From the IMG/VR virus record IMGVR_UViG_3300024262_000031, positions 1 to 61,276 of that record: 61,276 bases of DNA; one strand, written 5' to 3'. Below, in pieces: positions 17,661 to 60,861 of the stretch. The notes under the pieces are model-generated. The model saw only the letters and a list, made by a program, of their open reading frames with translations, ran no database searches and was not told the origin of the DNA. Positions within the stretch are counted from its first letter, which is position 1; every line of letters begins with the position of its first letter. A program made the position numbers and the translations under genes. The stretch is from a virus.

Positions 17661-17796
17661 TAATATAGGAGGATGTTATGAAAGAACAATGGCGAGATGT
17701 CGTGAATTATGAGGGATTCTATCAGGTTATACTTAATATAAGAGGATGTTATGAAAGAACAATGGCGAGATGTCGTGAATTATGAGAATTTATATC
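17651..17796 (+). repeat. 73-bp tandem direct repeat duplicating the start of the HNH gene
   Basis: Positions 17651-17723 and 17724-17796 are two near-identical copies of the -10 box, ribosome site, ATG and first ~14 codons. Only the first copy has the -35 box, while only the second continues into the intact gene. Because 73 is not a multiple of three, the first ATG reads out of frame into the second copy. Confidence 0.9.
17678..17785 (+). pseudogene. decoy 5' fragment of the HNH gene (35 codons)
   Basis: ATG 17678 has a strong AGGAGG site and encodes the family start (MKEQWRDVVNYEGFYQV), then shifts out of frame at the duplication junction. It stops at TGA 17785, inside the real gene. It is a remnant of a slippage or template-switch duplication and could act as an upstream open frame that damps translation of the full gene. 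Confidence 0.75.
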
Positions 17797-27740: not shown

Positions 27741-27790
27741 ACTTGTCTACCGTTACCACTGTTATACTTGTCTACCGTTACCACTGTTAT
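27741..27790. repeat. perfect 25-bp tandem duplication at a gene end
   Basis: Positions 27741-27765 and 27766-27790 are identical 25-bp units. The stop codon of the large repeat gene (27764-27762) falls inside the first unit. The duplication therefore copied the last codons of that gene past its stop without lengthening it. Confidence 0.9.
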
Positions 27791-42780: not shown

Positions 42781-43656
42781 TTATACCGCGATAATGATAT
42801 AATTTTGAGTGGCGGCTAATGAGTCAACATACAACATATTAGCATTCTCGATTGGCAATACCAAAGTTTCACCGGCGTCCAGTGGATATCCATTGGCGCT
42901 ATTGAAGGCGTCAACTGTCGCGCCTCCGACCCAAATTGGGTTGTCAGTATCATTGTCATCGCGTGAGCGAATCATAATAAACTTGTCAGCCGCAGCAGCC
43001 GCTACTTGAGCAGAAGCATTAGCTCCACCTGTATTCGCTGTAGCCATAGATACAGAAGGCTCAGTCATCTTGATAGCTTCAATGTTAGCTACCTCAGCGA
43101 CATTCGCCACTTCAGCCACGTTTGCTACGTTTGTTACGCTAGCCACTACAGCTACGTTAGCAACTTCAGCTACGTTAGCAACTTCAGCTACGTTCGCTAC
43201 GTTTACAACGTTTGCTACGCTAGTTACGCTAGCCACTACGGCAACGTTAGCAACTTCGGCTACGTTAGCTACGTTAGTTACGCTAGTTACGCTAGCCACT
43301 ACAGCTACGTTAGCAACTTCAGCTACGTTAGCAACTTCAGCTACGTTAGCAACTTCAGCGACGTTAGCGACGTTAGCAACATTAGTTACGCTAGCCACTA
43401 CGGCAACGTTTGCTACGTTAGCTACTTCAGCTACGTTAGCAATGTTCGCAACTTCCGTTACGCTAGCAACGACAGCTACATTAGCTACGTTAGCGACTTC
43501 AGCTACGTTCGCAACTTCGGCCACGTTAGCGACCTCTTGAACGTTCGCTACTTCTTGAATGTTGAGTACTTCGTTTACCTGTGCGATGAAGTCGATATTA
43601 CCAACCTCAACGATAGTTTCGATAGTACCTTCAACAACATTTACGGGAATAGCCAT
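42781..43656 (-). CDS. (xVA)n-repeat fibre protein (291 aa)
   Basis: A 291-residue protein. After a short start with the first strand set (IPVNVVEGTIETIVEVGN), residues ~28-196 are an almost pure three-residue repeat x-V-A, where x is mainly N or E, with occasional V, S or T (for example EVANVAEVANVANVAVVASV). The DNA shows the matching 9-bp and 18-bp periods. Residues ~200-291 form a globular tip with a strand-rich pattern (PIWVGGATVDAFNSANG; AGETLVLPIENANMLYV). A beta-helix or beta-spiral stalk with a tip domain is implied. It lies directly after the portal gene, so it may be a head or portal-proximal fibre. Confidence 0.75.
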   Translation of the reverse strand: MAIPVNVVEGTIETIVEVGNIDFIAQVNEVLNIQEVANVQEVANVAEVANVAEVANVANVAVVASVTEVANIANVAEVANVANVAVVASVTNVANVANVAEVANVAEVANVAEVANVAVVASVTSVTNVANVAEVANVAVVASVTSVANVVNVANVAEVANVAEVANVAVVASVTNVANVAEVANVAEVANIEAIKMTEPSVSMATANTGGANASAQVAAAAADKFIMIRSRDDNDTDNPIWVGGATVDAFNSANGYPLDAGETLVLPIENANMLYVDSLAATQNYIIIAV

Positions 43657-45883: not shown

Positions 45884-45912
45884 TTGACATTGTGAAATTT
45901 GTGTGTTATACT
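45884..45912 (+). promoter_or_regulatory. sigma70 consensus promoter for the HNH gene
   Basis: TTGACA, 17-bp spacer, TATACT: an exact -35 box and optimal spacing, then TAATATAGGAGG. It faces the HNH gene whose ATG is at 45932, against the late block. It is nearly identical downstream of the -10 to the promoter at 17632. Confidence 0.9.
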
Positions 45913-45931
45913 TAATATAGGAGGTAAACGA

Positions 45932-46444
45932 ATGAAAGAACAGTGGCGAGACGTAGTCGGATATTCGGGATATTATCAGGTCTCGAATCTTGGTCGAGTT
46001 AGATCAGTTGATCGAGTTATAAAACATCAGTATTCTGGTACACTAAGGCTAAAAGGACAAGAACTTCAACAATGTCTTAGAGGTAGTTATCTTGCAGTGG
46101 GCTTATGTAGGGGTGGAATTACACGAACTATTCGCGTTCATCAGCTTGTAGCGACTGCATGGATAAAACCTAACTCCAGTGGTCAAAAAGTTAGACATGG
46201 TGTTAATGGTAAACTAGATAACTCGGTTACTAATCTTTCCTACGGCTCATTGAGTGATAATCAACTCGATAGGCGTCGAGATGGGACACACCGAGGGAAA
46301 CCTGTACGGCGGAGTGATGGGGTTGAATTTATTAACATGCAAGTAGCGGCTGAAGAATCAAATTGTCGTGCTAATAGTATCTGTAGTGTTTGTAAAGGTA
46401 AACATAAAACTACAGGTGGTTATGGTTGGGAATACATTTTATAG
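45932..46444 (+). CDS. NUMOD4-HNH homing endonuclease, intact
   Basis: A 170-residue single-module relative of the double gene at 17751. NUMOD4 (EQWRDVVGYSGYYQVSNLGR) is followed by the HNH core (VHQLVATAWIKP, RHGVNGKLDNSVTNLSYGS), RRDGTHRGKPVRR and NUMOD1-like DNA-binding residues (SDGVEFINMQVAAEESNC; VCKGKHKTTGGYGWEYIL). The ATG at 45932 has AGGAGG seven bases upstream. It is inserted between portal-side and terminase genes on the opposite strand, and its stop overlaps the terminase stop by six bases. Intergenic sites beside conserved packaging genes are common homing sites. It acts as a DNA cleaver that promotes its own inheritance in co-infection. Confidence 0.9.
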   Translation: MKEQWRDVVGYSGYYQVSNLGRVRSVDRVIKHQYSGTLRLKGQELQQCLRGSYLAVGLCRGGITRTIRVHQLVATAWIKPNSSGQKVRHGVNGKLDNSVTNLSYGSLSDNQLDRRRDGTHRGKPVRRSDGVEFINMQVAAEESNCRANSICSVCKGKHKTTGGYGWEYIL

Positions 46445-48106
46445 GAAAGCTTTGATATCTTTGTTCGTTACATAACTAGCTGCTAAGGGGAGAGCTATCT
46501 CAGAATAGCAACGGGCGTGAGCGTAATGATCAGCACCTGTTTCAACGTATTTGGCCACTGGGTTACCCAGTTCATCTCTTTCATACGTTCTTACTATGTT
46601 TTTCAATTGCTCTCGGTACTCCCGACCAATGTCACGAGGTAACATAATTCGTTTGGAACGAAATCGTCCCAAAGCCGCGTCTAACCAATTGGTTCGATCT
46701 ACAGTAGCTATTGAGGCTCCTAGATCATCCTCTTGTATCGAAATCTCTTTCCCTGTCTGTCCGCGTCTGTAACGACATAAAGACACATAACCGCGAAACC
46801 GTCGTGCAAACCGTCGAGCGTCATTGATTTGGGGTTCAGCATCTATCACACAGTGCATGATTTGCCACGTTCTCATAAGCTCGTCGAGTCGCTCAAACTC
46901 GTCACCAGCTATTTTACCCACCCAAAGAACTTTAGCGGTGGCTGCAACATTCAAATCATGTGACATTGTATCAAAGAAATATTCAGTTATTTCTACGTTA
47001 TGCCACAGACCTTGGTCTACCCCCATTACAATTAAACGGTCACTTCCTGTAGGTCTCTGCTCTTCTGAAATATAGTTAGCTAAACATTCATCAAGCATAT
47101 CGTCCGTGATTTGTCCACCTTCTGGGATGTAAGGAATGCCAAGTTTAGAGTTATTAAATTCAACGTTGGCTGCTTCATCTCCTAACCCCCGATGGTAAGC
47201 TTCAACTAATTCGCCGGGATTCACTGTCCGTGAATACATTTGATTCACGTGAAAACTTCTGTGATCCTTACCAGATTCTTCATTTGTGACGTGCCAGTTT
47301 GCCGTGTCTAACCAATCAGCTTTGGTTTCGTGGTCTAGTTTATGTCCACACTCTTTACATTTGAGATAAGAGTCTGCACATCGGGGATCATTTACATCTT
47401 CGCCAAAAATCTCGATACAGTCTGGCCAAGTAAGCTCAGTCCATTTGTTACAGTGCGGGCATTGAAATACCCACTCTTCCATTGTTCCCTTAACGTATAA
47501 TTTGTGTATGCCATATTTTGGAAGGGTCGGTGTGCTGATTGCAAAAATACTTTTGTCCATGTGCCCTGATAGACGTTCCATTGCCCGCCAAATAACTGCT
47601 TGATCCATCTCATCTAATTCGTCGAGAATTAGATATGACACTGGGATGGATTTTAGATTACTGTCGCCACGCGAACCACGAATATACAGTGGTATGGCTC
47701 CCGCTTGTTTCAAACTGATGGTATTAGTATCTGTAAACAATCCAGCAATATACGGTGAGTTCAGACAAGCACCACTGAATCGAGTTTTTGAGAAGTCGGA
47801 TGCATTACCTGCGGTGGGTAAAACGTATAAAACAGCCTTCTTCAACACATCTATTGTGAAAAAGGCTCGATTGATAGCTATCTCGGTTACGCCTAGCTGG
47901 GCTCCCTTCATCACTACATTGGTAGAAGCTTGTGAGTCAGATATCTCTCGACACCAAGGATGATTTGCAAAACTGAATGGTCCTGGAAAGTCTGTTTCTT
48001 CGCCCATGACGCGTCGATAGTTTGCCCACTTTGAACAAGTCGTGATGGTTCTGCTTCGCAAACCTTCTGCAATCGACTGGCGTAATTCGTTTATCAATTC
48101 ATTCAT
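46439..48106 (-). CDS. terminase large subunit (GpA-like)
   Basis: A 555-residue packaging ATPase-nuclease. The Walker A variant is KGAQLGVT (67-74), and Walker B is YLILDELDEMD (D162, E163). A motif III-like FAISTPTLPK follows at ~188. A zinc-ribbon insertion follows: CPHC (216-219) and CKEC (250-253), as in lambda GpA-family enzymes. The nuclease part has VMGVDQG (~350), the first metal Asp, and further acidic residues downstream (CVIDAEPQ). It pumps DNA into the procapsid through the portal and cuts the genome. Start ATG 48106. No small terminase is recognised with certainty; the 54970-55512 protein is a weak candidate. Confidence 0.93.
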   Translation of the reverse strand: MNELINELRQSIAEGLRSRTITTCSKWANYRRVMGEETDFPGPFSFANHPWCREISDSQASTNVVMKGAQLGVTEIAINRAFFTIDVLKKAVLYVLPTAGNASDFSKTRFSGACLNSPYIAGLFTDTNTISLKQAGAIPLYIRGSRGDSNLKSIPVSYLILDELDEMDQAVIWRAMERLSGHMDKSIFAISTPTLPKYGIHKLYVKGTMEEWVFQCPHCNKWTELTWPDCIEIFGEDVNDPRCADSYLKCKECGHKLDHETKADWLDTANWHVTNEESGKDHRSFHVNQMYSRTVNPGELVEAYHRGLGDEAANVEFNNSKLGIPYIPEGGQITDDMLDECLANYISEEQRPTGSDRLIVMGVDQGLWHNVEITEYFFDTMSHDLNVAATAKVLWVGKIAGDEFERLDELMRTWQIMHCVIDAEPQINDARRFARRFRGYVSLCRYRRGQTGKEISIQEDDLGASIATVDRTNWLDAALGRFRSKRIMLPRDIGREYREQLKNIVRTYERDELGNPVAKYVETGADHYAHARCYSEIALPLAASYVTNKDIKAFL

Positions 48107-48123
48107 CCAGTTAGTTAAATACA

Positions 48124-48218
48124 GAGATCGCTCAAGTGTTCGTAATTGGTCCTTAACGGCCTAGTTCAGTGGTCAGGCGGTTAATGATTCTCCGGGCGTT
48201 CACATCCTGAGCGATCTC
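48124..48218. other. 11-bp inverted repeat enclosing a tRNA-like segment
   Basis: GAGATCGCTCA (48124-48134) and TGAGCGATCTC (48208-48218) are exact complements that would close a ~95-nt structure. Inside, on the plus strand, is a D-arm-like GCC-TAGTTCAGTGGTCA-GGC and a T-loop-like GTTCACATC, but no paired acceptor or T stem. It lies in the 162-bp gap 48107-48268 upstream of terminase, where no gene is seen. It may be a decayed tRNA or a 5'-leader structure of terminase mRNA. Confidence 0.4.
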
Positions 48219-48268
48219 GTTTATCTTTCTACAAGCGTGCTTCGTTCAATGGTCATACGGCCTCAGTC

Positions 48269-48958
48269 TTAGTCTTTGGCCTCCACGTCCGGCTTCGGAG
48301 CCGGTTCAGGGGCCGGTTTAGGTTCAGGTGTCAGTGCCGGTTTTGGATCAGGGTCCGGTTTCCGACGCCGATAAGGTGCAGGGGCCGGTTTAGGGGCCGG
48401 TTTCGGTTCAGGTGTCAGTGCCGGTTTAGGGGCCGGTGGTGCCGGTTTAGGGGCCGGTGGTGCCGGTTTAGGGGCCGGTGGTGCCGGTTTAGGGGCCGGT
48501 GGTGCCGGTTTAGGGGCTGGTGGTGCCGGTTTCGGGGCCAGTGGGGCTGTGCTCTGCTTTGGTTCCACGTGATTTGAAACTCGTGCCGCAATTACCTTCC
48601 CACCGTTTGGCGAAGGTGTTCCCTCTTCATGAACAGAGTCTAAACCTGCTTTAGGAATTGGTTTCTGAGGGCTATAGGGTGGTGAATGGTCCACAATAGA
48701 GGCTGGCTTAGTCTCTACCCTGCGGAAATTTTCAGGTCGGTGACGCTCGGCGTCATACTCGACCCAGTCTTCTTCAAAAGCACGGCTCAACAGAAGTCTA
48801 CTGTTGTGATCGTAAGCATGAAAAGTAATCAAGTCGGGTTTACCTTGCAAATCAATCTCAGCCCGGGGGAGCATTTCAATGCGGTTGGCTCCCTTTGGCT
48901 CATAAATATGCAAACAAATCTTGGCAGTCCCAGGTGGGCATACAGGAAGTCGAAACAT
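48269..48958 (-). CDS. protein with Pro-Lys-Pro repeat tail (229 aa)
   Basis: Residues 1-~85 form a compact beta-rich domain (GTAKICLHIYEPKG; AEIDLQGKPDLITFHAYD; LLLSRAFEEDWVEYD). Residues ~135-229 are nearly pure Pro/Ala/Lys repeats: PPAPKPA in six tandem copies, then PEPKPAPKPAP variants. Extended Pro-rich rods of this kind span the periplasm in TonB or link domains in surface proteins, but no signal peptide or anchor is present here. It overlaps by one base with the next gene upstream (a protein with a membrane segment), so the two may work together. Confidence 0.7.
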   Translation of the reverse strand: MFRLPVCPPGTAKICLHIYEPKGANRIEMLPRAEIDLQGKPDLITFHAYDHNSRLLLSRAFEEDWVEYDAERHRPENFRRVETKPASIVDHSPPYSPQKPIPKAGLDSVHEEGTPSPNGGKVIAARVSNHVEPKQSTAPLAPKPAPPAPKPAPPAPKPAPPAPKPAPPAPKPAPPAPKPALTPEPKPAPKPAPAPYRRRKPDPDPKPALTPEPKPAPEPAPKPDVEAKD

Positions 48959-49500
48959 TAGCTATCCCTCCGATGTCGTTTTTGTTTGGGAATGGGCGGC
49001 TGGTCCAAGAACATAAGCACGGTAAGCAAAAGTCTGAGAATCGTGGGCCAGTTTTCTTTGAACCAAACAAGAACGGCCTGCCAGATAGTTGTCCAATCCA
49101 CATTGGATAGTTCAGCCTTTGGCATCTCGGCTCGAACCTTAGTCTCAAATGCTTGCCATGCGTCATACGGCTGACCGTCGCGCATTCGTACAGGTTTTTT
49201 AATCAAATCTACAATCATCCGATGCTCGGCGGTTGTAATATCACCGTGCCTACGAGCACGTCTAGCGGCCAGTCGAGTCAAAAATTTGAAGTCACGACCC
49301 ATCCGCGTTGGATGATCTTGATACTGGAGGGCGTACTGAAGAAATTCTTCGTCCCCCTCACCTTCCAGTAGAATCTCTTCATCCGTTTGAACTCCCACTT
49401 CCACTTCTGGGACGACTTCATCCTCTATGAGATGCCCACCTCTGGAGTATGGGGTGGATGGAAGTTCGTGTTCGTGTTCGTGTTCACTCATAGTTACCAT
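48958..49500 (-). CDS. acidic protein with C-terminal membrane anchor (180 aa)
   Basis: A 180-residue protein with a His/Glu-rich start (MSEHEHEHELPSTPYSRGG), an acidic region to residue ~50, a basic helical middle (RDFKFLTRLAARRARRHGD), then an amphipathic Trp-rich helix and a hydrophobic segment (WPTILRLLLTVLMFLDQ, ~151-167) followed by a basic end (KQKRHRRDS). Architecture fits a C-tail-anchored inner membrane protein. ATG 49500 overlaps the thioredoxin gene by seven bases. An in-frame ATG at 49491 is equally possible, and neither has a strong ribosome site. No family is recognised. Confidence 0.68.
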   Translation of the reverse strand: MVTMSEHEHEHELPSTPYSRGGHLIEDEVVPEVEVGVQTDEEILLEGEGDEEFLQYALQYQDHPTRMGRDFKFLTRLAARRARRHGDITTAEHRMIVDLIKKPVRMRDGQPYDAWQAFETKVRAEMPKAELSNVDWTTIWQAVLVWFKENWPTILRLLLTVLMFLDQPPIPKQKRHRRDS

Positions 49501-50204
49501 AGCCTATAACTGGGACCGCTTACAAAATCATAGTTTGGACGGTCGGGGTTTGGATTAGGTGTGGGTGGTAGTGGTAGTGGTAGGTCCGGTTGAGGCTTCT
49601 TTAAGTATTTCAAAATCTCAGACCTCGTAGTGGACCCAAAACGTTGAATCATTTCTCCGCCCTCAAAAATCATTATCGTTGGGTACGAAGAAACATTGTA
49701 TTGGTTGACGAGGGTGGTATTATATTTGTTGTGGGCTACATGAATTTCATATCCTTCAGCTTCTAAAGCTTCTATGATGGGATACATGCTTTTGCAAGGT
49801 TGACACCCATCCATAGTGAAGAAAATCAAGTATTCCGACGACGTATTCGGGATCGAAACCTTTTTCGCCCATCTTCGGGGGAATCTTGGTCCTGCTCCTT
49901 TGATATCCTCTTCCGTCTTCGTCTTCGATATTGGCTCTCTGGCCCAGTCGAGTCCGTCTCGTCCCAAGTCTCCCGTGGAGTTGAGTCCGTCGTATTCCTG
50001 GAGTCGAGCGGCGGTGCGCCTGAATGATCCAAGTAAGCGTCCCCTATCTCGGAAACCTTCGTCACTGTCTCTGGTACGTTGATCTTCTGACCGGACTTTA
50101 TACTTCTCCAGAGACCCCAGAGAAATCCAATCACTTTCCGCATGAGCTTGAACATAAGTCGGTCCCATTACTAAAAGTAGGACAATTGTTGCTAGTAATC
50201 GCAT
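49494..50204 (-). CDS. exported thioredoxin-like protein
   Basis: A 236-residue protein with a Sec-type signal peptide (MRLLATIVLLLVMGPTYVQA, probable cleavage near A20-H21). Residues ~20-120 are charged and poorly structured. Residues ~123-210 are a thioredoxin fold: YLIFFTMDGCQPCKSMYP with active-site C134 and C137 (CQPC), then VSSYPTIMIFEGG with cis-Pro P175, then the terminal helix. A Pro-rich tail follows (PLPLPPTPNPNP). It would act on disulfides in the periplasm or cell envelope. It lies 21 bp after the Tat-signal peptidase gene, which is also exported and Cys-dependent, so it may reduce or protect that enzyme (inference). Confidence 0.87.
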   Translation of the reverse strand: MRLLATIVLLLVMGPTYVQAHAESDWISLGSLEKYKVRSEDQRTRDSDEGFRDRGRLLGSFRRTAARLQEYDGLNSTGDLGRDGLDWAREPISKTKTEEDIKGAGPRFPRRWAKKVSIPNTSSEYLIFFTMDGCQPCKSMYPIIEALEAEGYEIHVAHNKYNTTLVNQYNVSSYPTIMIFEGGEMIQRFGSTTRSEILKYLKKPQPDLPLPLPPTPNPNPDRPNYDFVSGPSYRLW

Positions 50205-50225
50205 TTGTTTCCCCTCGTGCCCCTG

Positions 50226-52262
50226 TTACCAAAAGCGGTAATCTATATCAAGCCGTGGGTACCCAATGTAGGCACTCATAGCTATACTGTCACCTTGTCT
50301 TAAACCACGGTCAATAACGCTAGCATCTGCCCAAAAAGAACCTTCAGGTTGATCGTGTCGTTTTGGGCCATATGTCCAATTAGAATTACCAGCCCAAACT
50401 GCTCTACCATTTCGTCGCACATAAATAACTTGATTCGGGACTGTGACACAAAATACCTCGCCTCGATAAGGTAGTAATATTGGCTTATAGGCTATATGTT
50501 GCTCTAAAGCTTTTACTTTAATTCCAACTCGGTATTCAATGTGTCGAGTAATTCCGCCTGTTCCATTATCGCGTCCACGTCGATCTGTGTACGAAATATC
50601 TCCAGCAAGTCCACAATGTAACAACAGACGTTGAAAATCATCAGCTAATCGTTTAGACGATGTGTAATAAGTCCTCTTGATACCCGTTAAGCCGGGACTA
50701 ATTGATCCATCACCTAGCATCAAAGCATCATACAATATTCTCAATTGGCGAGCCGAACATTCCCATACATAATCAGGAATATATTTTTCATGGGCTTTAC
50801 CAAAAGATTTTAACTCAGCTAATAAATCTCTACTAGTTTGATTTAGAAAGTGAGTATCATAGTTACAAAACTTAAAAGGTAATTGTTCTATGCAAGCTTG
50901 AATAATAGCATAGTTTTCTTTGTTTGTTTGACAAACTCCAACCCCTCTTTTGATACCATTTTTTACAACATCTCTAACACCAGGGGTATATGATTGATTT
51001 TCAGTGGTATAACCCTCTGACAAAAAGTAGCCAAGAAATTCTAACCACAAGTCCATTGGAATTTCAGCATCCCCTATTTGATGAGTTTCTTTGTCAGGTC
51101 GTGAATTATTTGCATCCTTTTTCATTTTAATAGTTTGAATGCACTCATCGGCCCGTGTTAAAAACCAATCATCCGTTTTTGCTGTTTTAGCAACATATAA
51201 ATTATGGTTAGGTGTAATAGCTAAATCAATATCTCTGGATTTATGATGCCATAGATAATCGTTATAAGGATAACGATGATAGCAAGTTGGCGCTTGATAC
51301 TCAAGTTCATGTGTTTCTTGATTCAAAGTAGCTACTTTCTCAGACTCATTTAAGTCTTTGAAAAGCTTCCAACCCTCATTAGTAAGAATCTCGGTTTGCT
51401 CGTCATAGCATCCCCAACTGTTAATAATAAGTCCGCCCGGACGTTTATATTGGTCGTCTATCCCGGCAATAAGCATACAATGCATCCATGGGCGTCGTCC
51501 AGGAGTCAAGAATCCATCTCTATCTCGCCCACCCCGAGTCTTGAAGCCCACGCTGCTACACATCGCAACGGGGTGACCGTTTGCTATCGAATCACGGCAT
51601 TCATCCCATGATCGGCATAGCGAGACAGTCTTCACCGGGTGTAACCGGCACAAAGGTTCTAGGGGGTCGGGAACTCCCGTTCGTCCCAGTGTGCGAGCCA
51701 CCTGGCCTGAATATTCAGTGTAGTCGTATTTACCACCGAGATACCGTTTACGATGTAATACGCCCCACTTATTGATGAATTCTCCAGCCCAAGTCCCCAT
51801 TGAGCCATCGCCTCGGATTGTACCACCACCGGCTTCTATTCGACTCCCCGCGTAGAGAATCTCAGTAGCAACTTTGGCAACCCAACGCTCAGTTTTACCG
51901 GGCATGAGCATCTGAACGGCTGATAAAAGGTCTATACCGAGACCAAAACCATGCGAGACGCAATCACCAATTTCTTGTAGATGAGGAACCAACGGATTCT
52001 GGGTTACTTCCTCGAAGTACTTCCAGAGTAAGGTAACTTTACCCTTTCCAGACTCTCGAATCTCTTGATTTTGTTGCGAGAGGAATGGTTTCTGGTGGCT
52101 CTGGACCCATGTAGTCCTGGATATTTCATCATTAACCCAGCCAGCCTGTAACGGAAGGCGCGAATCGTCTCTGGCTTGTACCCATGGGGGTGTCCAGAGT
52201 CCACTACCAGCCGCTAACCCAGCTACACTGAGTCCCTGTTTTAAGAAGTCACGCCTTCGCAT
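50226..52262 (-). CDS. Tat-signal papain-like cysteine peptidase interrupted by an intein
   Basis: A 678-residue precursor. Residues 1-~30 are a twin-arginine signal (RRRDFLK then LSVAGLAAGSGLW). The peptidase part has papain-family (C1-like) landmarks: the catalytic loop IGDCVSHGFGLG with C101, MHCMLIAGID with H261, and LIINSWG with N281. An intein occupies residues 285-626, beginning three residues after N281. After splicing, SWG joins SNWTYGP, giving a 336-residue enzyme. The glutamine of the oxyanion hole is at Q96, one residue nearer the Cys than usual. The Tat route implies export in a folded state, so cytoplasmic splicing before export is required. Neighbours are an exported thioredoxin-like protein and a membrane-anchored protein. 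A role in envelope entry or lysis is possible but unproven. Confidence 0.88.
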   Translation of the reverse strand: MRRRDFLKQGLSVAGLAAGSGLWTPPWVQARDDSRLPLQAGWVNDEISRTTWVQSHQKPFLSQQNQEIRESGKGKVTLLWKYFEEVTQNPLVPHLQEIGDCVSHGFGLGIDLLSAVQMLMPGKTERWVAKVATEILYAGSRIEAGGGTIRGDGSMGTWAGEFINKWGVLHRKRYLGGKYDYTEYSGQVARTLGRTGVPDPLEPLCRLHPVKTVSLCRSWDECRDSIANGHPVAMCSSVGFKTRGGRDRDGFLTPGRRPWMHCMLIAGIDDQYKRPGGLIINSWGCYDEQTEILTNEGWKLFKDLNESEKVATLNQETHELEYQAPTCYHRYPYNDYLWHHKSRDIDLAITPNHNLYVAKTAKTDDWFLTRADECIQTIKMKKDANNSRPDKETHQIGDAEIPMDLWLEFLGYFLSEGYTTENQSYTPGVRDVVKNGIKRGVGVCQTNKENYAIIQACIEQLPFKFCNYDTHFLNQTSRDLLAELKSFGKAHEKYIPDYVWECSARQLRILYDALMLGDGSISPGLTGIKRTYYTSSKRLADDFQRLLLHCGLAGDISYTDRRGRDNGTGGITRHIEYRVGIKVKALEQHIAYKPILLPYRGEVFCVTVPNQVIYVRRNGRAVWAGNSNWTYGPKRHDQPEGSFWADASVIDRGLRQGDSIAMSAYIGYPRLDIDYRFW
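50385..51410 (-). mobile_element. intein with LAGLIDADG homing endonuclease (342 aa)
   Basis: It starts with Cys (CYDEQTEILTNEGWKLFKDL, splicing block A, nucleophile C1) and contains block B with TPNHNLYV (T-x-x-H). It ends VYVRRNGRAVWAGN followed by Ser as the +1 nucleophile (block G with Gly instead of His before the terminal Asn, a known variant). The endonuclease core has two LAGLIDADG-like motifs: LEFLGYFLSEGY and ILYDALMLGDGSIS. Insertion is in the active-site segment of the peptidase, the usual place because it cannot be lost imprecisely. All splicing residues appear intact. Confidence 0.93.
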
Positions 52263-52276
52263 ACAGTCCTCACTTT

Positions 52277-53128
52277 CTACCGGGCTGCAAAATATCTCAG
52301 ACCCTTAGCTATTTCTTTCCACGCCTCAGAGTGTTGGTCTGGACTTACCAGCTTACCATCATCGGCTCTAGCTTCTAACTCAGCTTGAAGGCCACGCAAA
52401 AATGGAATCCAAACTTGCAGCCTGTCCCCCAACGCCCCTTTATTTGCATCGGTTGTAGACTGAATAATATCATACGCAGTGGTCAAGACGCCAGCGTCTA
52501 TTTGAGACGCCACACTTTCAAAACCATTGGCCAACTGACGTGCCTCAGCACTTCGAGTTGGGGATTGTATTTGTCCGCACCATCCGTTGACTTGCTTAGC
52601 AAGTTCGGAAGTCAGGACACTGGGTCCGGGTAGTGGTGGTGTGATAGGATCGGGAGGTTCAACGGGGCCGGGTGGTGCAATGCCTAAGACGCGCACAACG
52701 TGACGTTTAACGTCAACGGTGTCAGCAGCAGCACCGGCGATAATGAACATGAATTCCCCAGGTACGCCAGAACTAAAGACCGCTCGTCGCCCGTCGTCAA
52801 TGACTAAGAAGTCCTCTGTTTCTGGAACAACCAACCACTTGAACGTTACCGCTGTGGATTCAGATACATCCAAAACTACCAGCTTACCAAGTTTGACTTC
52901 CTTCGGGGCTGAAACAACTACTACAGCTTCTCCACCCGCTTGAATGTCTGTTAAGCCTTGATAAACTGCTGTCTTTGGTACTAGCTCTTGGCCATAAAGT
53001 TGCGACCCTACGTTCCCTGGCAGGCTTATATAGCTGCCAACACTGAAAAAACCAACCACTGCAATTACAATTACAATGAAGCTAGCAATTCCCGTGAGTA
53101 ACCACTTTCTTTTTCTGTTAAAATTCAT
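52277..53128 (-). CDS. membrane-anchored protein with Ig-like and helical domains (283 aa)
   Basis: A basic start (MNFNRKRKWLL) and a single transmembrane segment (TGIASFIVIVIAVVGFFSVG, ~12-31) place the rest outside the cytoplasm. Residues ~65-150 look like an Ig/PKD-like beta domain (AVVVVSAPKEVKLGKLVVLD; TVDVKRHVVRVLG). A Pro-rich linker follows (PPGPVEPPDPITPPLPGP), then a helical C-terminal domain (~170-283). It lies 14 bp upstream of the Tat peptidase gene and is probably co-expressed with it. No family is named. A host-envelope function is inferred from topology. Confidence 0.75.
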   Translation of the reverse strand: MNFNRKRKWLLTGIASFIVIVIAVVGFFSVGSYISLPGNVGSQLYGQELVPKTAVYQGLTDIQAGGEAVVVVSAPKEVKLGKLVVLDVSESTAVTFKWLVVPETEDFLVIDDGRRAVFSSGVPGEFMFIIAGAAADTVDVKRHVVRVLGIAPPGPVEPPDPITPPLPGPSVLTSELAKQVNGWCGQIQSPTRSAEARQLANGFESVASQIDAGVLTTAYDIIQSTTDANKGALGDRLQVWIPFLRGLQAELEARADDGKLVSPDQHSEAWKEIAKGLRYFAAR

Positions 53129-53154
53129 CTTTTCCCCCGCAAGATATTCTAGCC

Positions 53155-53328
53155 TTACAGTACTAAGTACTTATAGGCTTCAATCGGCCACGCAAAACAA
53201 TATACGATTTCATTGAGTGTTAGATTTCCATCATAGCTCATGGCATGCCCGGCTAGTACCAATACGACTGCCCCGCCAAGCCAAAATCCCGACCCAAAAA
53301 TAAGCCCCCGCGTCAATAGCTTCAACAT
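53155..53328 (-). CDS. small membrane protein (57 aa)
   Basis: ATG 53328 is preferred because GAGGGG lies seven bases upstream; an in-frame ATG at 53343 is also possible (62 aa). The product has one or two short hydrophobic stretches (LIFGSGFWLGGAVVLVLAG; IVYCFAWPIEAYKYLVL) with a polar turn between. Size and topology resemble class II holin-like or other small late membrane proteins. It lies among similarly small genes upstream of the exported-peptidase module. Confidence 0.6.
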   Translation of the reverse strand: MLKLLTRGLIFGSGFWLGGAVVLVLAGHAMSYDGNLTLNEIVYCFAWPIEAYKYLVL

Positions 53329-53364
53329 TGTATTTCCCCTCATCCACCCCTAAAATACCCATGT

Positions 53365-53394
53365 GGCGGACGGTCTGGGGCAAGACCGCCCGCC
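53365..53394. other. strong GC hairpin between small genes
   Basis: GGCGGACGGTCT and AGACCGCCCGCC pair at 11 of 12 positions around a six-base loop. No T-run follows on either strand, so a terminator is uncertain. It lies in the 75-bp gap between two small leftward frames and may mark an mRNA processing or pausing site. Confidence 0.5.
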
Positions 53395-53417
53395 AGCCTA
53401 CATAGCCCTTCCAGGGC

Positions 53418-53585
53418 TTATTCGCTCTCCGGTTGCTCTGGTTGCTCCAGTTGCTCCAGTTGCTCCAGTTGCTCCGGGGGTCCAAGAGGCTTTCGCCTTT
53501 TTCGTCCCGAGCCTCTTTTGAACTTAATTTTCTGTCGTCTAGGCGGTTTAGGCTGCTCAGGCGATTCGGGTTTTTGCTCATCCAT
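53418..53585 (-). CDS. small Pro/Gln-rich basic protein (55 aa)
   Basis: A 55-residue frame from ATG 53585 to TAA 53420-53418. It begins MDEQKPESPEQPKPPRRQ, followed by a very basic part (KIKFKRGSGRKRRKP) and a 9-bp-repeat-encoded tail (EQLEQLEQLEQPEQPESE). Repeats that keep frame and the clear charge pattern favour this frame over a longer overlapping one. Function is unknown; the basic middle could bind nucleic acid. Confidence 0.55.
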   Translation of the reverse strand: MDEQKPESPEQPKPPRRQKIKFKRGSGRKRRKPLGPPEQLEQLEQLEQPEQPESE

Positions 53586-53608
53586 TATAGTTAGTCCCTT
53601 TACTGGGG

Positions 53609-53785
53609 TTATCGTCGGGGTTTCTTGGGTTGACCAGTCGGATTCCAGATTTCTGGACCAGCCGGTTTCTTTACAGTTTCACCGGGTGACTTAACAACAT
53701 CGCTACCAGGTCCAGGTGACTTTGCACCGACTGGCGGATACTGAGATTTGTCGCCCGCAGGCAGATTTCCAAATGTTTTTGTCAT
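53609..53785 (-). CDS. small Pro/Gly/Lys-rich protein (58 aa)
   Basis: A 58-residue frame from ATG 53785 to TAA 53611-53609. It begins MTKTFGNLPAGDKSQYPPVG, continues with KSPGPGSDVVKSPGETVKKP and ends NPTGQPKKPRR. Low complexity and likely disorder. It lies 5 bp after the holin-like gene in the same direction, consistent with one operon. No homologue is recognised. The composition resembles its neighbour at 53418. Confidence 0.55.
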   Translation of the reverse strand: MTKTFGNLPAGDKSQYPPVGAKSPGPGSDVVKSPGETVKKPAGPEIWNPTGQPKKPRR

Positions 53786-53790
53786 AGTTG

Positions 53791-54021
53791 TTACCCAATC
53801 TTCTTCCAGGTAGCAAACCGCAGTATGGTGTTGACTAAACCTTGGGCTGCGATTAACCCAGCGATGAGTGTCGCATTGTCTGCAATTAGGTCATGTCCAG
53901 CGACGTAGCCGATAATACCGGCAACAAGCGTGAGGCCATTAACCCAAATTATCTTTGATTGCCAAAAGGGCTTTGCTTCCACAGGGGTATCAGCCTTGGG
54001 AGCAAGATCATAATCAGCCAT
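53791..54021 (-). CDS. holin-like small membrane protein (76 aa)
   Basis: A 76-residue protein with a polar start (MADYDLAPKADTPVEAKPF) and two hydrophobic segments: IIWVNGLTLVAGIIGYVAG (~24-42) and ATLIAGLIAAQGLVNTIL (~50-67), then a basic end FATWKKIG. Two-pass proteins of this size with a WVN-G-L start to the first segment are common phage holins or holin-like proteins. The genes around it are also small and membrane-linked. There is no recognised endolysin beside it, so the lysis role is a proposal. Confidence 0.65.
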   Translation of the reverse strand: MADYDLAPKADTPVEAKPFWQSKIIWVNGLTLVAGIIGYVAGHDLIADNATLIAGLIAAQGLVNTILRFATWKKIG

Positions 54022-54043
54022 ATTTATACCCTCCTAATGAGGT

Positions 54044-54739
54044 TTACGTGAAATCGTAAGTGTCAATTGCTGCGGGACCAACCTCGTCACCAATCGGGTA
54101 ACGTAGATTCGGGGTTCTCATCCATCCCTGTGGTCCGTAGCGAGTTACTTTTGAGGTTCCGTGCCAGTACAGATTTCCGAAAGGAGTCACCAAGTAATCA
54201 TTGGGTTTGTTACCATCTGGGACTTCCTTGCCGTCGTAGTATACATGACCTTCGTGGTGGTATTTATCTCTCGGTGGCACAAGATGCTCAACATAGTATT
54301 TCCAGGCACCGTCTTCAAAGGTGCGGGAAATATCTATTCCGTAGACGGCCTTTGTAGATATAAGCTCGTCCGGAATTGTCAGTTCTTTACCAACGGGGCC
54401 GCTAACAGCCGCGAATTGCCAGCCCGCATCACCTTGCCAAAAACACTTGCCCCAAGGGGTAGTATAGAAGTCATTGATATCTTTAGCTATCAGACAACTA
54501 TTCTTGTAGCAAAGTACGCCCATGCTGTCTTTATAAACAGACCAATGCCAACCGTCCTTCTCCATTGGTATGGGTGAGGCATCAGTTGGCACAGGTATAG
54601 ACACGTCAACAGTGGGTTGATTTGGTTGGGCGGGATTTTCGACGACGCTACTACCGTCAGTCAGTTGTAGATTCACTGACAGAAGAATAGCGATAGAAAA
54701 TGTAATGACCAGCAGAAATACGTCTTTAAGCCTGTTCAT
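54044..54739 (-). CDS. membrane-anchored repeat protein (231 aa)
   Basis: A 231-residue protein with an N-terminal anchor or signal (DVFLLVITFSIAILLSVNLQL, ~6-26; at most a weak cleavage site). A Pro-rich linker (~33-58) leads to an aromatic domain with two related units: NDFYTTPWGKCFWQGDAGW (~88-106) and NDYLVTPFGNLYWHGTSKV (~180-198). One Cys pair (C77 and C82) could form a disulfide. The C-terminus is GPAAIDTYDFT. No family is recognised. It overlaps the start of its upstream neighbour by 14 bases and is likely exposed outside the cytoplasm. Confidence 0.7.
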   Translation of the reverse strand: MNRLKDVFLLVITFSIAILLSVNLQLTDGSSVVENPAQPNQPTVDVSIPVPTDASPIPMEKDGWHWSVYKDSMGVLCYKNSCLIAKDINDFYTTPWGKCFWQGDAGWQFAAVSGPVGKELTIPDELISTKAVYGIDISRTFEDGAWKYYVEHLVPPRDKYHHEGHVYYDGKEVPDGNKPNDYLVTPFGNLYWHGTSKVTRYGPQGWMRTPNLRYPIGDEVGPAAIDTYDFT

Positions 54740-54968
54740 TGTTTCCGTCTTTTATGGTTCGGAGTAGGTGTTGTTCAATTTTAGCTTTTAACATGTTGAC
54801 TGTTCCAAGACAAGCAAAGGGCTCGCCACGAAACAGATAAGATACGTTCTCGCGTTTAAGTTCTGAGCCTTTATCAAGCAAGCCTATCATTGCGAATACA
54901 TCAAATCGTTTTTTAAGAGCATCTAAAAGCTCTTTGGTTGGAACAATGTCTAATTCTTCAGGATTCAT
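54726..54968 (-). CDS. small hypothetical protein (80 aa)
   Basis: An 80-residue soluble, helix-rich protein: MNPEELDIVPTKELLDALKK, then RFDVFAMIGLLDKGSELK, RGEPFACLGTVNML and a C-terminal helix. There is one Cys and no membrane segment. It starts one base after the stop of the upstream gene and overlaps the downstream gene by 14 bases, so it is fully embedded in the late operon. It has the look of a small regulatory or adaptor protein, without a recognised family. Confidence 0.68.
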   Translation of the reverse strand: MNPEELDIVPTKELLDALKKRFDVFAMIGLLDKGSELKRENVSYLFRGEPFACLGTVNMLKAKIEQHLLRTIKDGNNEQA

Positions 54969-54969
54969 A

Positions 54970-55512
54970 CTAATCGTCGCCTTGATCTTTCCCAGCCGTA
55001 AGGATGGCTGAGACTATTCGGTCACTGATCTTGTCAATTATGATATCACTGTCGTCGATATCTTCTAGTTCTTCTATGATAATCTCTATAATCTCGCGGC
55101 CCAGGGCCACTATAGAAGACTTAGAGAGTAACGTACCGAGATTACGTTCTACCAGATTACAAGCTTTAACCAGGCGTTCTACTGTGAGAAGAAGAGAATT
55201 AAGCGTGCCACAAGCAGCGAGTAATTCGCCATCACCTGCAATCATATTGAATCGACTCTCGATTAACATTCTAGCGAATGCAATCTCTTCCCGAAGCGAC
55301 TTGACATCCTCGTGGTCACTTAGGGTAGCGAGACGGCCAGAATAGCGCGCATCAGTCAGCAAATAGTGACGCATTTTAGCAGCCTCAACGCGACCCTCAG
55401 CACGATAGTCATGCCCTGCACAATACAGGGAGCCTTCGACTCGCTCTTGGGTACATTGAGCCTTGTCACTTACATGCTGGCAGCGTTTGTCGGGGTCTGC
55501 TATTCGTGGCAT
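54970..55512 (-). CDS. first late-block protein, N-terminal zinc-ribbon-like motif (180 aa)
   Basis: A 180-residue protein with Cys and His spaced as a metal site at the start (C12, C20, C31, H34: CQHV, QCTQERVEG, LYCAGH), a basic helical middle, and long acidic helices at the end (EIIEIIIEELEDIDDSDIII). It is the first gene after the palindromic element at 55571, so it leads the leftward late transcript. First position and helical character would suit a small terminase subunit or a transcription regulator; terminase small subunits often begin with DNA-binding helices, which are not obvious here. No family is fixed. Confidence 0.65.
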   Translation of the reverse strand: MPRIADPDKRCQHVSDKAQCTQERVEGSLYCAGHDYRAEGRVEAAKMRHYLLTDARYSGRLATLSDHEDVKSLREEIAFARMLIESRFNMIAGDGELLAACGTLNSLLLTVERLVKACNLVERNLGTLLSKSSIVALGREIIEIIIEELEDIDDSDIIIDKISDRIVSAILTAGKDQGDD

Positions 55513-55930: not shown

Positions 55931-56419
55931 ATGAATCGCATTCAAGCCTTCGGACAAACATACAGGTCGATTAAATCTCTCGCTCGTGATCCGCGATGCG
56001 TTGTGGACTATTATACGCTCTGGCGACGGATTCGATTTTATGGTTGGGACATAACCGAGGCGGCTACGACCATGGAAGATGAATCCTGGTATGTTGTATG
56101 GGGAGAGAAATTTCCAACACTGAATGACTTGTTAGCTGATTCACGGTGTATGGTTGGAAACCATAGGACGTTAAGCAAACGGATTAAACGTGGTGTCCCG
56201 ATTCAAGATGCAGTTTTAGAACGACCGACCGCAGACTTGAAATTTGAGGTTTGGGGAGAACAATTTGCCAACCTAACAGAGGTTAGTCGCGATTCACGGT
56301 GTGTACCACAATACAAGACGCTAATGTATCGTCTACAAGCTGGCACCCCACTAGAAATAGCTGTGCAAGACAAACAGGTCTTTTTGGACTGGCGGCGAGG
56401 GGATTTATGCGAACATTAG
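55931..56419 (+). CDS. triple-repeat DNA-binding-like protein (162 aa)
   Basis: The start is ATG 55931, just after promoter P2; a longer frame upstream runs through both promoters and is rejected. Three repeats of ~46-50 residues follow the pattern G-Q/E-x-F/Y-x-S/T-L-x-x-L/V-A/S-x-D-x-R-C...T-L-x-x-R-I/L-x-x-G-x-x-I-x-x-A: [34 protein letters not shown] and [17 protein letters not shown]. The unit resembles short helix-turn-helix repeats seen with homing endonucleases and in phage regulators, so DNA binding is likely. It overlaps the glucose-6-phosphate dehydrogenase start by 13 bases. It may regulate the accessory operon or derive from a lost endonuclease. Confidence 0.75.
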
Positions 56420-57696
56420 TTATTGTGGGCGCCTCTGGCGACCTTACACGTAGGAAACTGATTCCTGCGTTGTACAATCTCTGGCTCAGCAAGTCTCTCA
56501 AGGATTTTCGTATCATTGGGACAGCAATTCATGAATTCACCGACGAAGAGTGGGTAGCACACCTCGCGGACGGGCAAGATACCGGTGGTAAGTGGCAGCA
56601 GTTCTCCGAGTTGCTCTCATACGCCCCTGGTGACGCCCTGAAGGGCGAGTTGCCAGAGGGAGACATATACTACCTTGCACTACCGCCCGACTTGTTTGGC
56701 CCCGTAGCGGCCCGTATCAAGCATCCCTGCAAGCTGATAGTCGAAAAGCCATTTGGGACGGACCTGGGAACGGCTCAAGACTTGAACGAGATGCTACATG
56801 AGTGTTTTGACGAGGACGATATTTACCGAATAGACCATTACTTAGGCAAAGAGCCCGTTCAGAACCTACTGGTCTTTCGTTTCGCAAATGCTCTCTTTGA
56901 GCCCGTTTGGAATCGAAACTTCATAGACCACGTCCAGATTACGGCTGCGGAGACACTCGGAGTGGGTGCTAGGGGACAATTTTATGAACAAGCTGGCGTG
57001 CTCCGAGATGTTGTACAAAACCACCTCCTACAACTATTGGCCCTCGTGGCTATGGAGGCCCCGGCCGGGTTAAACGACATTTGTGGTGAGAAGCTAAAGG
57101 TTCTGCGGACAGTTCCGACTCTTTGGGAATCGGATTGTAAGAATACCCTGCAAGCTCAGTATGACTCTTATCGTGATACGCCAGGTGTATCCGCTAACTC
57201 ACAGACAGCCACCTTTTGTTGTGTTAAGTTAACGGTTAACAACTGGCGGTGGACTGGCGTGCCCTTTTATCTTAGGGCTGGGAAGATGCTGGCTGACAAG
57301 ACGACTCGAATCGTGATTCAGTTCAAGTCGATACCCCATCAGGTGTTCGGAACTGCTACACCTAACAGATTAGTTATCAAAATTGATCCAGAAGAAAGTA
57401 TCCGGTTACATTTTACAGCCAAGGTACCCGGGTGGGGCGCTGTTGCTGAGAAAAATCTACTGTTTCAGTATAACGAAGACCTTCCCAATGCCTATCAGAC
57501 TCTCTTACGGGACATTTTTGACGGGACTCAGAGCCTTTTTACTCGTGCAGACGAGGTTGAGGAATGTTGGCGGATAATTGACCCGATTCAGCAGTATTGG
57601 GACGACGCGGCCCCGCTGTACCGCTACGAGCCAGGAACATGGGGACCGGCGGCTGCGGATGAATGGCTAGCCAAGGAAGGGAGATGCTGGTGGTAA
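56407..57696 (+). CDS. zwf: glucose-6-phosphate dehydrogenase (phage-encoded)
   Basis: A 429-residue enzyme starting at ATG 56407, with GAGGGG six bases upstream. Landmarks are the Rossmann loop [11 protein letters not shown] (8-18), VEKPFGTDL (112-120), the substrate-binding RIDHYLGKE (141-149), the catalytic helix [10 protein letters not shown] with H206, and [12 protein letters not shown] further on. It is about 60-80 residues shorter than cellular enzymes (around 490-510), mainly by trimmed loops; all named catalytic residues remain. It oxidises glucose-6-phosphate to 6-phosphogluconolactone and makes NADPH, the first step of the oxidative pentose phosphate pathway. In cyanophages the same gene diverts host carbon toward nucleotides. 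Overlaps with both neighbours show a compact operon from promoters P1/P2. Confidence 0.95.
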
Positions 57697-58202
57697 CGGA
57701 AAGATGGCGAAAGGTTATAGGTTATGAGGAATCCTATGAAGTTTCTAGTCTTGGTAAAGTGAGGTCAGTGGATAGGATTCTACCACACTCGCGGTATGGT
57801 ACTTGGAAATTGAATGGGCGAATTTTACACACTATATTATCTGGTGGATATCTTGCAGTAAATTTATCGAAAGAAGGAACTTCACGATATATCCGGATTC
57901 ATCGGCTTGTAGCGGCTGCATGGATTGGACCGTGTCCAGAGGGTCAACAGGTTAGACATGGTCCTAACGGTAAGCTAGATAATTCCATTTCTAACCTTTG
58001 CTATGGTACGCCTAGTGAAGATGGTCTTGATAAGCGTAGGGATGGAACGCATATTGGCAAAGCTGTGCGTCGTAGTGATGGTGTCGAATTTATCAGTATG
58101 ACCGTCGCTGCTGAAGAAACAGGTTGTGGGCGTGTGTGTGTATCTGGGCTGTTTGTAACGGGCGTCAAAAAACAGCCGGTGGTTATGGCTGGGAATACGT
58201 AA
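57684..58202 (+). pseudogene. NUMOD4-HNH homing endonuclease with frameshifted C-terminus
   Basis: The start at ATG 57684 (AAGGA six bases upstream) overlaps zwf by 13 bases. NUMOD4 (ERWRKVIGYEESYEVSSLGK) and HNH core (RLVAAAWIGPCPEGQQVRHG, LDNSISNLCYGT) are intact. At residue ~150 the frame shifts in a (GT)5 run (58132-58141). Removing one GT restores the family ending (VCNGRQKTAGGYGWEYV) and carries the frame to a TGA at 58220-58222, overlapping the next gene start. As it stands the product is 172 residues and lacks the normal NUMOD1-like end. The catalytic part could still fold, but specific DNA binding would be impaired. A sequencing error in the run cannot be excluded. Confidence 0.85.
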
Positions 58203-58214
58203 CGGAGAAATCGA

Positions 58215-59156
58215 ATGTGTGATATTTTAGTAGCCGGTGGCGCGGGCTTTTTGGGTTCGCATTTGTGTCGTCGTTTGGTCGCTGAGGGCAACCGAGTCAC
58301 GTGCATCGACAATCTTCAGACTGGTCGCAAAGAGAATGTGGCTGACCTTATTGGCACGCCAGCTTTTCGCTTCTTTAGAGCGGACGTGAAGGACATGGCA
58401 CGGTTGCGACGTTTGAATGACGGCTATGATAAAATTTTCAATTTGGCGTGCCCAGCTTCACCCCCAGCATATCAAAAAGACCCTATCAACACGATGCTGA
58501 CCAACGTTGTTGGGACCGAGAATCTGCTTCACATAGCTGCCATCTCGAAAGCGAGATTCTTGCAAGCCTCAACAAGCGAAGTGTACGGATGCCCAGAAAA
58601 GCACCCACAGAACGAAGAATATCGGGGCAATGTCAATCCGGTCGGTGTGCGGAGTTGCTACGACGAGGGCAAACGGGCTGCTGAGACGCTGTGTATGGAT
58701 TATCGACGCAAACATGGCACAGATGCGAAGATTGTACGTATTTTCAATTGCTATGGCCCCGGGATGCGTCCTGATGATGGCCGGGTAGTCTCGAACTTTA
58801 TTATGCAAGCCCTCAAAGACGAACCCATCACTCTGTACGGCGACGGAATGCAGACCCGTTCCTTCTGCTACGTTGACGATATGATTGATGGCCTCATTAA
58901 GATGATGAACTCAAGTCTGGCGGGACCGGTGAATCTTGGTAATCCCAATGAGTTTGATATGCACCATCTCGCCGGTATAATTTGTGGTCTCATAACTAGT
59001 ACCTCACGGTATGTCTATGAAGACTTGCCAGAAGATGACCCCAGGGTACGCTGCCCAGATATTACACTAGCTCGTACTCTCTTAGGTTGGGAGCCCCGGG
59101 TCGAACTTCGTGAGGGCCTAAAGAAAACGATAGCTTATTTCAAAGGACTGATGTAA
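58215..59156 (+). CDS. UDP-glucuronate decarboxylase-like sugar-nucleotide SDR
   Basis: A 313-residue short-chain dehydrogenase. NAD loop GGAGFLGSH (8-16); '[15 protein letters not shown]' (76-90) and ASTSEVYG with T120, S121 and E122; catalytic YDEGK with Y149 and K153 in RSCYDEGKR. Next come [19 protein letters not shown] and [10 protein letters not shown]. This set matches UDP-xylose synthase (UXS), which oxidises and decarboxylates UDP-glucuronate to UDP-xylose in the cytoplasm. Related dTDP-glucose dehydratases lack the ACPASPP motif. UDP-xylose could feed glycan modification of virion or host surface. The stop overlaps the next ATG (TAATG). Confidence 0.9.
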
Positions 59157-60210: not shown

Positions 60211-60454
60211 ATACACCGTGGTAATAGAATGTCCCGACATGATTCAAGACAAATTTGCGATTGGTTGTACTATCGGACGGCTAATTGACAACAATAATTG
60301 GCAAGTCCTTAAAACGTACCGGGACGGTAAAGTTACGATTACAGTGCTTGGATTTTCAAATTGGGAGGGGGCTAAGAAAGCCTGCGACTTGATGGATGAA
60401 GAGGGTATCGCGGGGTTGACAGTCTATAGCGAAGAGGTCATAAAAAGTCTATGA
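60203..60454 (+). CDS. hypothetical protein (83 aa)
   Basis: ATG 60203 is chosen because GAGG lies six bases upstream; an earlier in-frame ATG at 60191 is possible. The product has an alpha-beta pattern with two Cys, MIRYTVVIECPDMIQDKFAI then IAGLTVYSEEVIKSL at the end. No family is recognised. Its stop overlaps the ATG of the next gene by four bases (ATGA). Confidence 0.65.
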   Translation: MIRYTVVIECPDMIQDKFAIGCTIGRLIDNNNWQVLKTYRDGKVTITVLGFSNWEGAKKACDLMDEEGIAGLTVYSEEVIKSL

Positions 60455-60861
60455 AGTCCTTACCTATACTCACTGAAGCTCAAGTGCGGAAGTTTTTGGC
60501 AAGGGTCCAAAGTGGCCGTCCTCAAGATTGTTGGGAATGGCAAGGTCGTACCTCTCCGAAGGGTTACGGACGATTTAGTATCAAAAACAACGAGTGCCTA
60601 GCTCATCGTGTAGCCTTCTTCCTGCATAACGAAGTTGATCCTCAAGATAGCATCGTTAGACAAACGTGTAAGAATAAAAAGTGTTGCAATCCCTCCCACC
60701 TTCGACTCGATGAGGCAACTAAATTAGGCCCCTTGCAAATTCGATACATTCGAGGACAGGCAGCTAAGGGAGTGTCATCACGAACTTTAGCGAAGCAGTA
60801 TAGTGTGGCGAAATCAACAATTCAGAATATCATAACCAACGCGACTTGGAAGAACGTTTAG
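60451..60861 (+). CDS. HNH-type protein with a missing catalytic His plus HTH domain (136 aa)
   Basis: A 136-residue member of the HNH_3-like group: CWEWQG (27-32), GYGRFS, LAHRVAFFL (50-58), then C73, C78, C79, NPSHL with H83. In active relatives the segment before the first Cys reads V-x-H-x-C; here it is VRQTC, with Q71 in place of the His. The remaining zinc ligands and final N-x-x-H are present. Residues ~90-136 form a resolvase-like helix-turn-helix (GVSSRTLAKQYSVAKSTIQ). The protein may bind DNA without cutting it. The tRNA-Ser gene starts at its stop codon. Confidence 0.8.
   Translation: MKSLPILTEAQVRKFLARVQSGRPQDCWEWQGRTSPKGYGRFSIKNNECLAHRVAFFLHNEVDPQDSIVRQTCKNKKCCNPSHLRLDEATKLGPLQIRYIRGQAAKGVSSRTLAKQYSVAKSTIQNIITNATWKNV

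Follow-up and report, generated by a model that had tools for sequence, protein, structure and literature searches.

The window analysed here, a stretch of 61,276 nucleotides, is an IMG/VR virus contig from an uncultured phage. It carries a cassette (46439-55512) with a conserved gene order, namely a TerS-like gene, a 283-aa protein, a protease, a secreted thioredoxin, a 180-aa protein and TerL. The protease is encoded on the minus strand by an ORF of 678 aa (52262..50226), which is interrupted by an intein; once this is excised, a protein of 336 aa is left. The conserved 283-aa protein directly upstream (52277..53128, minus strand) has an N-terminal hydrophobic stretch. Directly downstream lies a thioredoxin-fold protein (CQPC; 49494..50204, minus strand), which is predicted to be secreted and whose gene was detected at the locus in many, though not all, relatives. 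The next conserved neighbour, the 180-aa protein (48958..49500, minus strand), has a hydrophobic stretch at its C-terminus, and the terminase large subunit is of the GpA type (46439..48106, minus strand). The cassette is possibly a lysis or envelope module, and, judging from gene order and export signals, the protease may have a role in lysis or envelope attack. A TerL search in about 300 Planctomycetota and about 300 Chloroflexota genomes, the phyla of the related loci L105 and L104, respectively, matched only the MAG from which L104 comes.

The N-extein of the protease (51411..52262, minus strand; 284 aa) comprises a putative Tat signal and a papain-like domain with Q96, C101, H261 and N281, while the C-extein (50229..50384, minus strand; 52 aa), followed by the stop codon (50226-50228, minus strand), forms the last part of the papain fold. 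The twin-arginine signal region (MRRRDFLKQGLSVAGLAAGSGLW...; 52173..52262, minus strand) scores 19.4 bits against the TIGR01409 profile, above its cut-off of 16.7 bits. The protein is, thus, a predicted Tat substrate, in agreement with an earlier note on this DNA that described it as a Tat-exported peptidase, and an RR pair lies close to the start in nearly all complete members of the protease clade. The codons of the catalytic residues are at 51960..51962 (Cys101), 51480..51482 (His261) and 51420..51422 (Asn281), all on the minus strand; the last one is 9 bases before the intein, and the first one, empty in the window, is the site of a second intein in relatives. All of 45 intein-free relatives have the Gln, Cys and His of the papain centre, and at least 90% of them also have the Asn.

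AlphaFold2 predicted a papain fold for L051, a relative without an intein (pLDDT 91.3). The best VIA-align match of this model is xylellain (3ois_B; Z 23.2, 3.2 A over 244 residues, 19% identity), with cathepsins and papain coming next, and the modelled segment ahead of the domain aligns with procathepsin pro-regions. The Pfam Peptidase_C1 profile gave 13.8 bits on L051, below its cut-off of 20.7, and had no listed match for the window protease; we, therefore, refer to the protein as papain-like (clan CA) and not as a Pfam C1 member. The family shares the papain fold, the Q/C/H/N set and the NSWG motif with xylellain and the C1A papain-family proteases, from which it differs in scoring under the Peptidase_C1 cut-off, in its putative Tat signal and in being a phage gene located between TerS-like and TerL genes. 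Sequence searches of the PDB with the N-extein and with profiles returned no useful match, and the N-extein of the window had no match in 50,697 cultured-phage records. Mycobacteriophage matches obtained in one search mostly reflected intein similarity and were set aside.

The intein spans 50385..51410 on the minus strand (342 aa, residues 285-626 of the ORF) and is a class 1 intein with a LAGLIDADG endonuclease. The earlier note had placed it at these positions, which proved exact to the base, and three residues after N281, as is the case, G284 being the last residue before it. It is inserted in frame between INSWG and SNWTYG, with a Cys as its first residue, an Asn as its last and a Ser next to it. 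Block B (TPNH) occupies residues 350-353 (51204..51215, minus strand), and the two LAGLIDADG motifs previously noted were both found: LGYFLSEG at residues 410-417 (51012..51035, minus strand) and LMLGDGS at residues 514-520 (50703..50723, minus strand). A class 3 assignment (no N-terminal nucleophile, WCT motif) was ruled out by the presence of C1.

The PF14528 (LAGLIDADG_3) profile matched the window intein above the Pfam cut-off. PF14890 (Intein_splicing) had no match in the record, window intein included, so the intein was identified from its residues, its relatives and its predicted fold. The predicted structure of the precursor (pLDDT 85) matches the intein-endonuclease structures 7qsu and 1dq3, with a HINT fold plus a LAGLIDADG domain, and resembles the TliVMA and PI-PfuI intein-endonucleases as well as the papain-fold protease xylellain. 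Given the LAGLIDADG_3 score, the same-site relatives, the empty alleles and the predicted-fold match, the intein is not a chance resemblance.

The same insertion site, hereafter the Asn site, is occupied on five contigs: the window, L001, L003, L004 and L005, of which L003 and L005 are truncated. The three complete same-site inteins on the other four contigs have 65-86% amino acid identity to that of the window. An N-terminal C1 and the block B TPNH (TxxH) are common to the window intein and the three full-length same-site inteins. The earlier statement that all splicing residues are present needs to be narrowed: C1, TPNH, the terminal Asn (N342) and the +1 Ser are in place, and thus all nucleophiles, but both assisting His are missing. 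The penultimate residue is Gly (WAGN/S, the slash marking the splice junction) and the block F residue is Gln (VPNQ), unlike in L004, where the block F His is retained (VPNH). In class 1 inteins, a penultimate His is common though not required. Related phage inteins inserted elsewhere mostly end in GN without it as well, and inteins lacking the penultimate or block F His can splice (PMC7664689). Without these residues, the window intein could splice slowly or need compensation.

The absence of both assisting His could alternatively mean that the intein is splicing-dead or that the protease gene is decaying, so that no active enzyme would be made. The C-extein of L004 is in line with decay, as a 17-base deletion just after the intein (L004:4256-4300) breaks the frame relative to L005. 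However, this deletion may be real decay or an assembly error, and the frame breaks also seen in L016, L053 and L064 may likewise be assembly errors. In the window, the nucleophiles are intact and the reading frame is open. Furthermore, omega was 0.05 for the splicing domain and, between the window and L001, 0.12 (0.07-0.20) for the endonuclease, the latter indicating purifying selection, and the GN ending is that of most related phage inteins. We consider loss of function very improbable.

The earlier note had also proposed that splicing may be sensitive to redox through C1. Such control would limit production of the protease to reducing or changing redox conditions. In favour of it, the nucleophile C1 is a thiol, the intein holds nine Cys and a thioredoxin gene is adjacent to the protease; redox control through a catalytic Cys is also known for DnaBi1 of Mycobacterium smegmatis (PMC6195587). 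DnaBi1 is, however, a class 3 intein with demonstrated redox control, while the window intein belongs to class 1 (PMC6195587 for DnaBi1). No Cys other than C1 is found close to the junctions of the window intein, as the flanks (SWG/ and /SNW) lack this residue. A Cys at position 1 is common to class 1 inteins. The Cys kept in the four same-site inteins (C1, C43, C173, C218, C266 and C321) do not point to a dedicated trap, and the secretion-type N-terminus of the thioredoxin implies that it would act outside the cytoplasm, where it would be a simpler redox partner for the Cys of the mature enzyme. The proposal is not borne out, and we regard redox-gated splicing as extremely unlikely.

Protein and profile scans of viral contigs yielded 380 and 396 confirmed protease-family stretches in two scans. 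Since part of the intein-bearing loci were found with intein queries, occupancy is to be judged from the protease scans. Intein-free alleles of the Asn site, which the earlier note had suggested looking for, are common in the same Tat clade and are the rule in the phage family, with the same gene order (L012-L015, L024-L033 and others). In these alleles, only 18 distinct proteins have a Ser following NSWG. The others mostly carry Ala, Pro, Glu or Asn at this position, none of which can act as a +1 residue. A scan of the collection for another intein type at NSWG (TCN Ser codon, C..GT start) gave five chance hits, none of them in a protease.

A second site is occupied in relatives. Besides the Asn-site intein, the near relative L001 contains an unrelated one of 380 aa. 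It directly precedes the catalytic Cys, which, judging from the sequence, would double as the +1 splicing residue. This Cys-site family, starting with C and ending in HN/C, was found on 13 contigs (L001, L034/L162, L049, L050/L164, L166, L167, L168, L169, L173, L175, L176, L206 and L041). Four lineages have mini-inteins without an endonuclease, of 130 aa (L041), 131 aa (L173 and L175/L176) and 170 aa (L206), and six of the bearers (L167, L168, L169, L173, L175 and L206) are proteases without a signal peptide. Because the +1 residue is fixed by catalysis, every Cys-site allele is permissive. The cleanest single case of mobility concerns this site and not the Asn site: L221 (IMG/VR 3300044641_002682) and L223 (3300042355_000276) represent the same phage locus and are near-isogenic, with 96.7% nucleotide identity over 3.2 kb and 92.7% over 2.0 kb. 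Precisely at the codon of the catalytic Cys, L223 carries a mini-intein of 393 bp (131 aa) that is absent from L221. In the clade of these two loci, 78 out of 80 fetched loci are empty at the Cys site.

These occupancy patterns bear on whether the intein has a role for its host. The protease presumably must splice to work; the precursor is likely inactive, since the insertion separates the last 52 residues of the enzyme from the NSWG motif, and splicing likely precedes Tat export. The earlier note saw in this a possible timer. In such a co-opted role, the intein would hold back protease activity in the cytoplasm for as long as it is not spliced out, delaying export and possible host damage. 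The insertion does adjoin the catalytic Asn281 of a probably inactive precursor, and mini-inteins without an endonuclease are kept at the catalytic Cys, as expected if the splicing part were retained for itself. However, most relatives in the same Tat clade have no intein, which indicates that the protease does not need one and that the intein-free allele serves sister phages. Cys-site inteins also sit in members without a signal peptide, so that active-site invasion does not track Tat export. In addition, occupied and empty alleles of the Cys site coexist in near-identical phages and the empty one prevails in their clade. Ordinary pro-peptide control may exist anyway, as suggested by the segment resembling cathepsin pro-regions in the L051 model. 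The data, thus, speak against a timer, and such a co-opted role is unlikely. It is likewise improbable that the inteins at both catalytic motifs act as safety catches, with the Cys-site mini-inteins as domesticated switches whose splicing time sets protease activation.

The phylogeny of the proteases points instead to mobility. In a maximum likelihood tree of 53 spliced proteases, the window and L001 fell into one well-supported group and L004 into another, the other members of both groups mostly having no Asn-site intein, and the Cys-site inteins were scattered over the tree. Between the window and L001, amino acid identity was 86% for the intein, 74% for the N-extein and 81% for TerL, and pS was 0.559, 0.723 and 0.803, respectively. 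The 95% bootstrap intervals of the differences in pS exclude zero, both for the N-extein minus the intein (0.05-0.28) and for TerL minus the intein (0.15-0.35). The intein is AT-rich, with a GC3 of 0.24 against 0.46 for the host gene, and the same shift was observed in L001 and L004. As pS is near saturation and an AT-rich intein lowers apparent pS, the rate-based argument for homing is a moderate one; between the window and L004, synonymous sites are saturated everywhere.

We, therefore, conclude that the class 1 intein located among the active-site codons of this phage papain-like protease is very probably a mobile (homing) element. This is supported by its anatomy, the empty and occupied alleles, the two sites, the sporadic spread, the lower divergence of the intein and the purifying selection on the endonuclease. 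The best reading of the whole is that selfish homing inteins repeatedly invaded both halves of one active site. Translation would produce a precursor with a folded HINT/endonuclease insert; cytoplasmic splicing would follow, driven by C1, S+1 and N342. The joined exteins, now a protease of 336 aa, would then fold and exit by Tat, while the free endonuclease would cut the intein-free NSWG/S..W codons of a co-infecting phage, into which the intein would be copied. A different intein family would likewise target this enzyme at its catalytic Cys, which would act as the +1 nucleophile. The placement in the active site would protect the element, as the target is conserved and the gene stays functional only if a deletion is exact. 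The mean distance of natural inteins from active-site residues is 8.3 A (PMC3359363); the position beside Asn281 is, thus, an expected habit and not evidence for regulation.

The element is of a known kind. The class 1 LAGLIDADG inteins in TerL of mycobacteriophages (PMC5050341) also combine a HINT domain with a homing endonuclease, are sporadic, lie near catalytic motifs and occupy several sites per gene. The host here differs from theirs in being a predicted exported papain-like protease and not a DNA or nucleotide enzyme, and the terms 'peptidase' and 'lysin' are absent from that paper. The MCM genes of haloarchaea (PMC10643990) also have two inteins per gene, and the +1 residue of empty alleles is often unfit in both systems, being Pro at the MCM-d site and Glu, Pro, Ala or Asn at the Asn site. 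In contrast to MCM, the two sites here fall on opposite halves of a single catalytic centre, and at the Cys site the catalytic nucleophile itself would be the +1 residue. As in M. smegmatis DnaB (PMC6195587), there are two inteins in one protein and a functional host residue doubles as +1, which for DnaBi1 is the P-loop Ser. Our search of the open-access literature brought up no description of an intein in a papain-like protease, which is weak evidence of absence. Exported phage papain-like proteases would be a new host family for inteins. They offer a clean natural experiment, in which each half of the catalytic centre of a single enzyme is the site of a different, unrelated intein. All occupancy states occur (none, Asn, Cys and both), along with mini-inteins and a near-isogenic pair of empty and occupied alleles. 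With these, a simple protease assay could directly address a long-standing question, namely whether inteins in active sites regulate the host protein or only hide there.

The window phage is rich in homing elements beyond the intein. Free-standing homing endonuclease genes of the NUMOD4/HNH type were detected on the plus strand at 17751-19019, 45899-46444, 57663-58202 and 60451-60861, the last with a weak HNH_3 match only, and one of these genes abuts TerL. Two plus-strand genes were judged by eye to belong to carbon metabolism, one resembling glucose-6-phosphate dehydrogenase (56299-57696) and the other a nucleotide-sugar dehydratase/decarboxylase (58215-59156). A protein with a Sulfotransferase_2 domain is encoded among the tail-region genes (12050-12778, minus strand). 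The structural region encodes two very repetitive proteins, both on the minus strand, one of 1742 aa with LSLDHDASVQ-type repeats (27762-32990) and one of 291 aa with EVANVAEVANV-type repeats (42781-43656).
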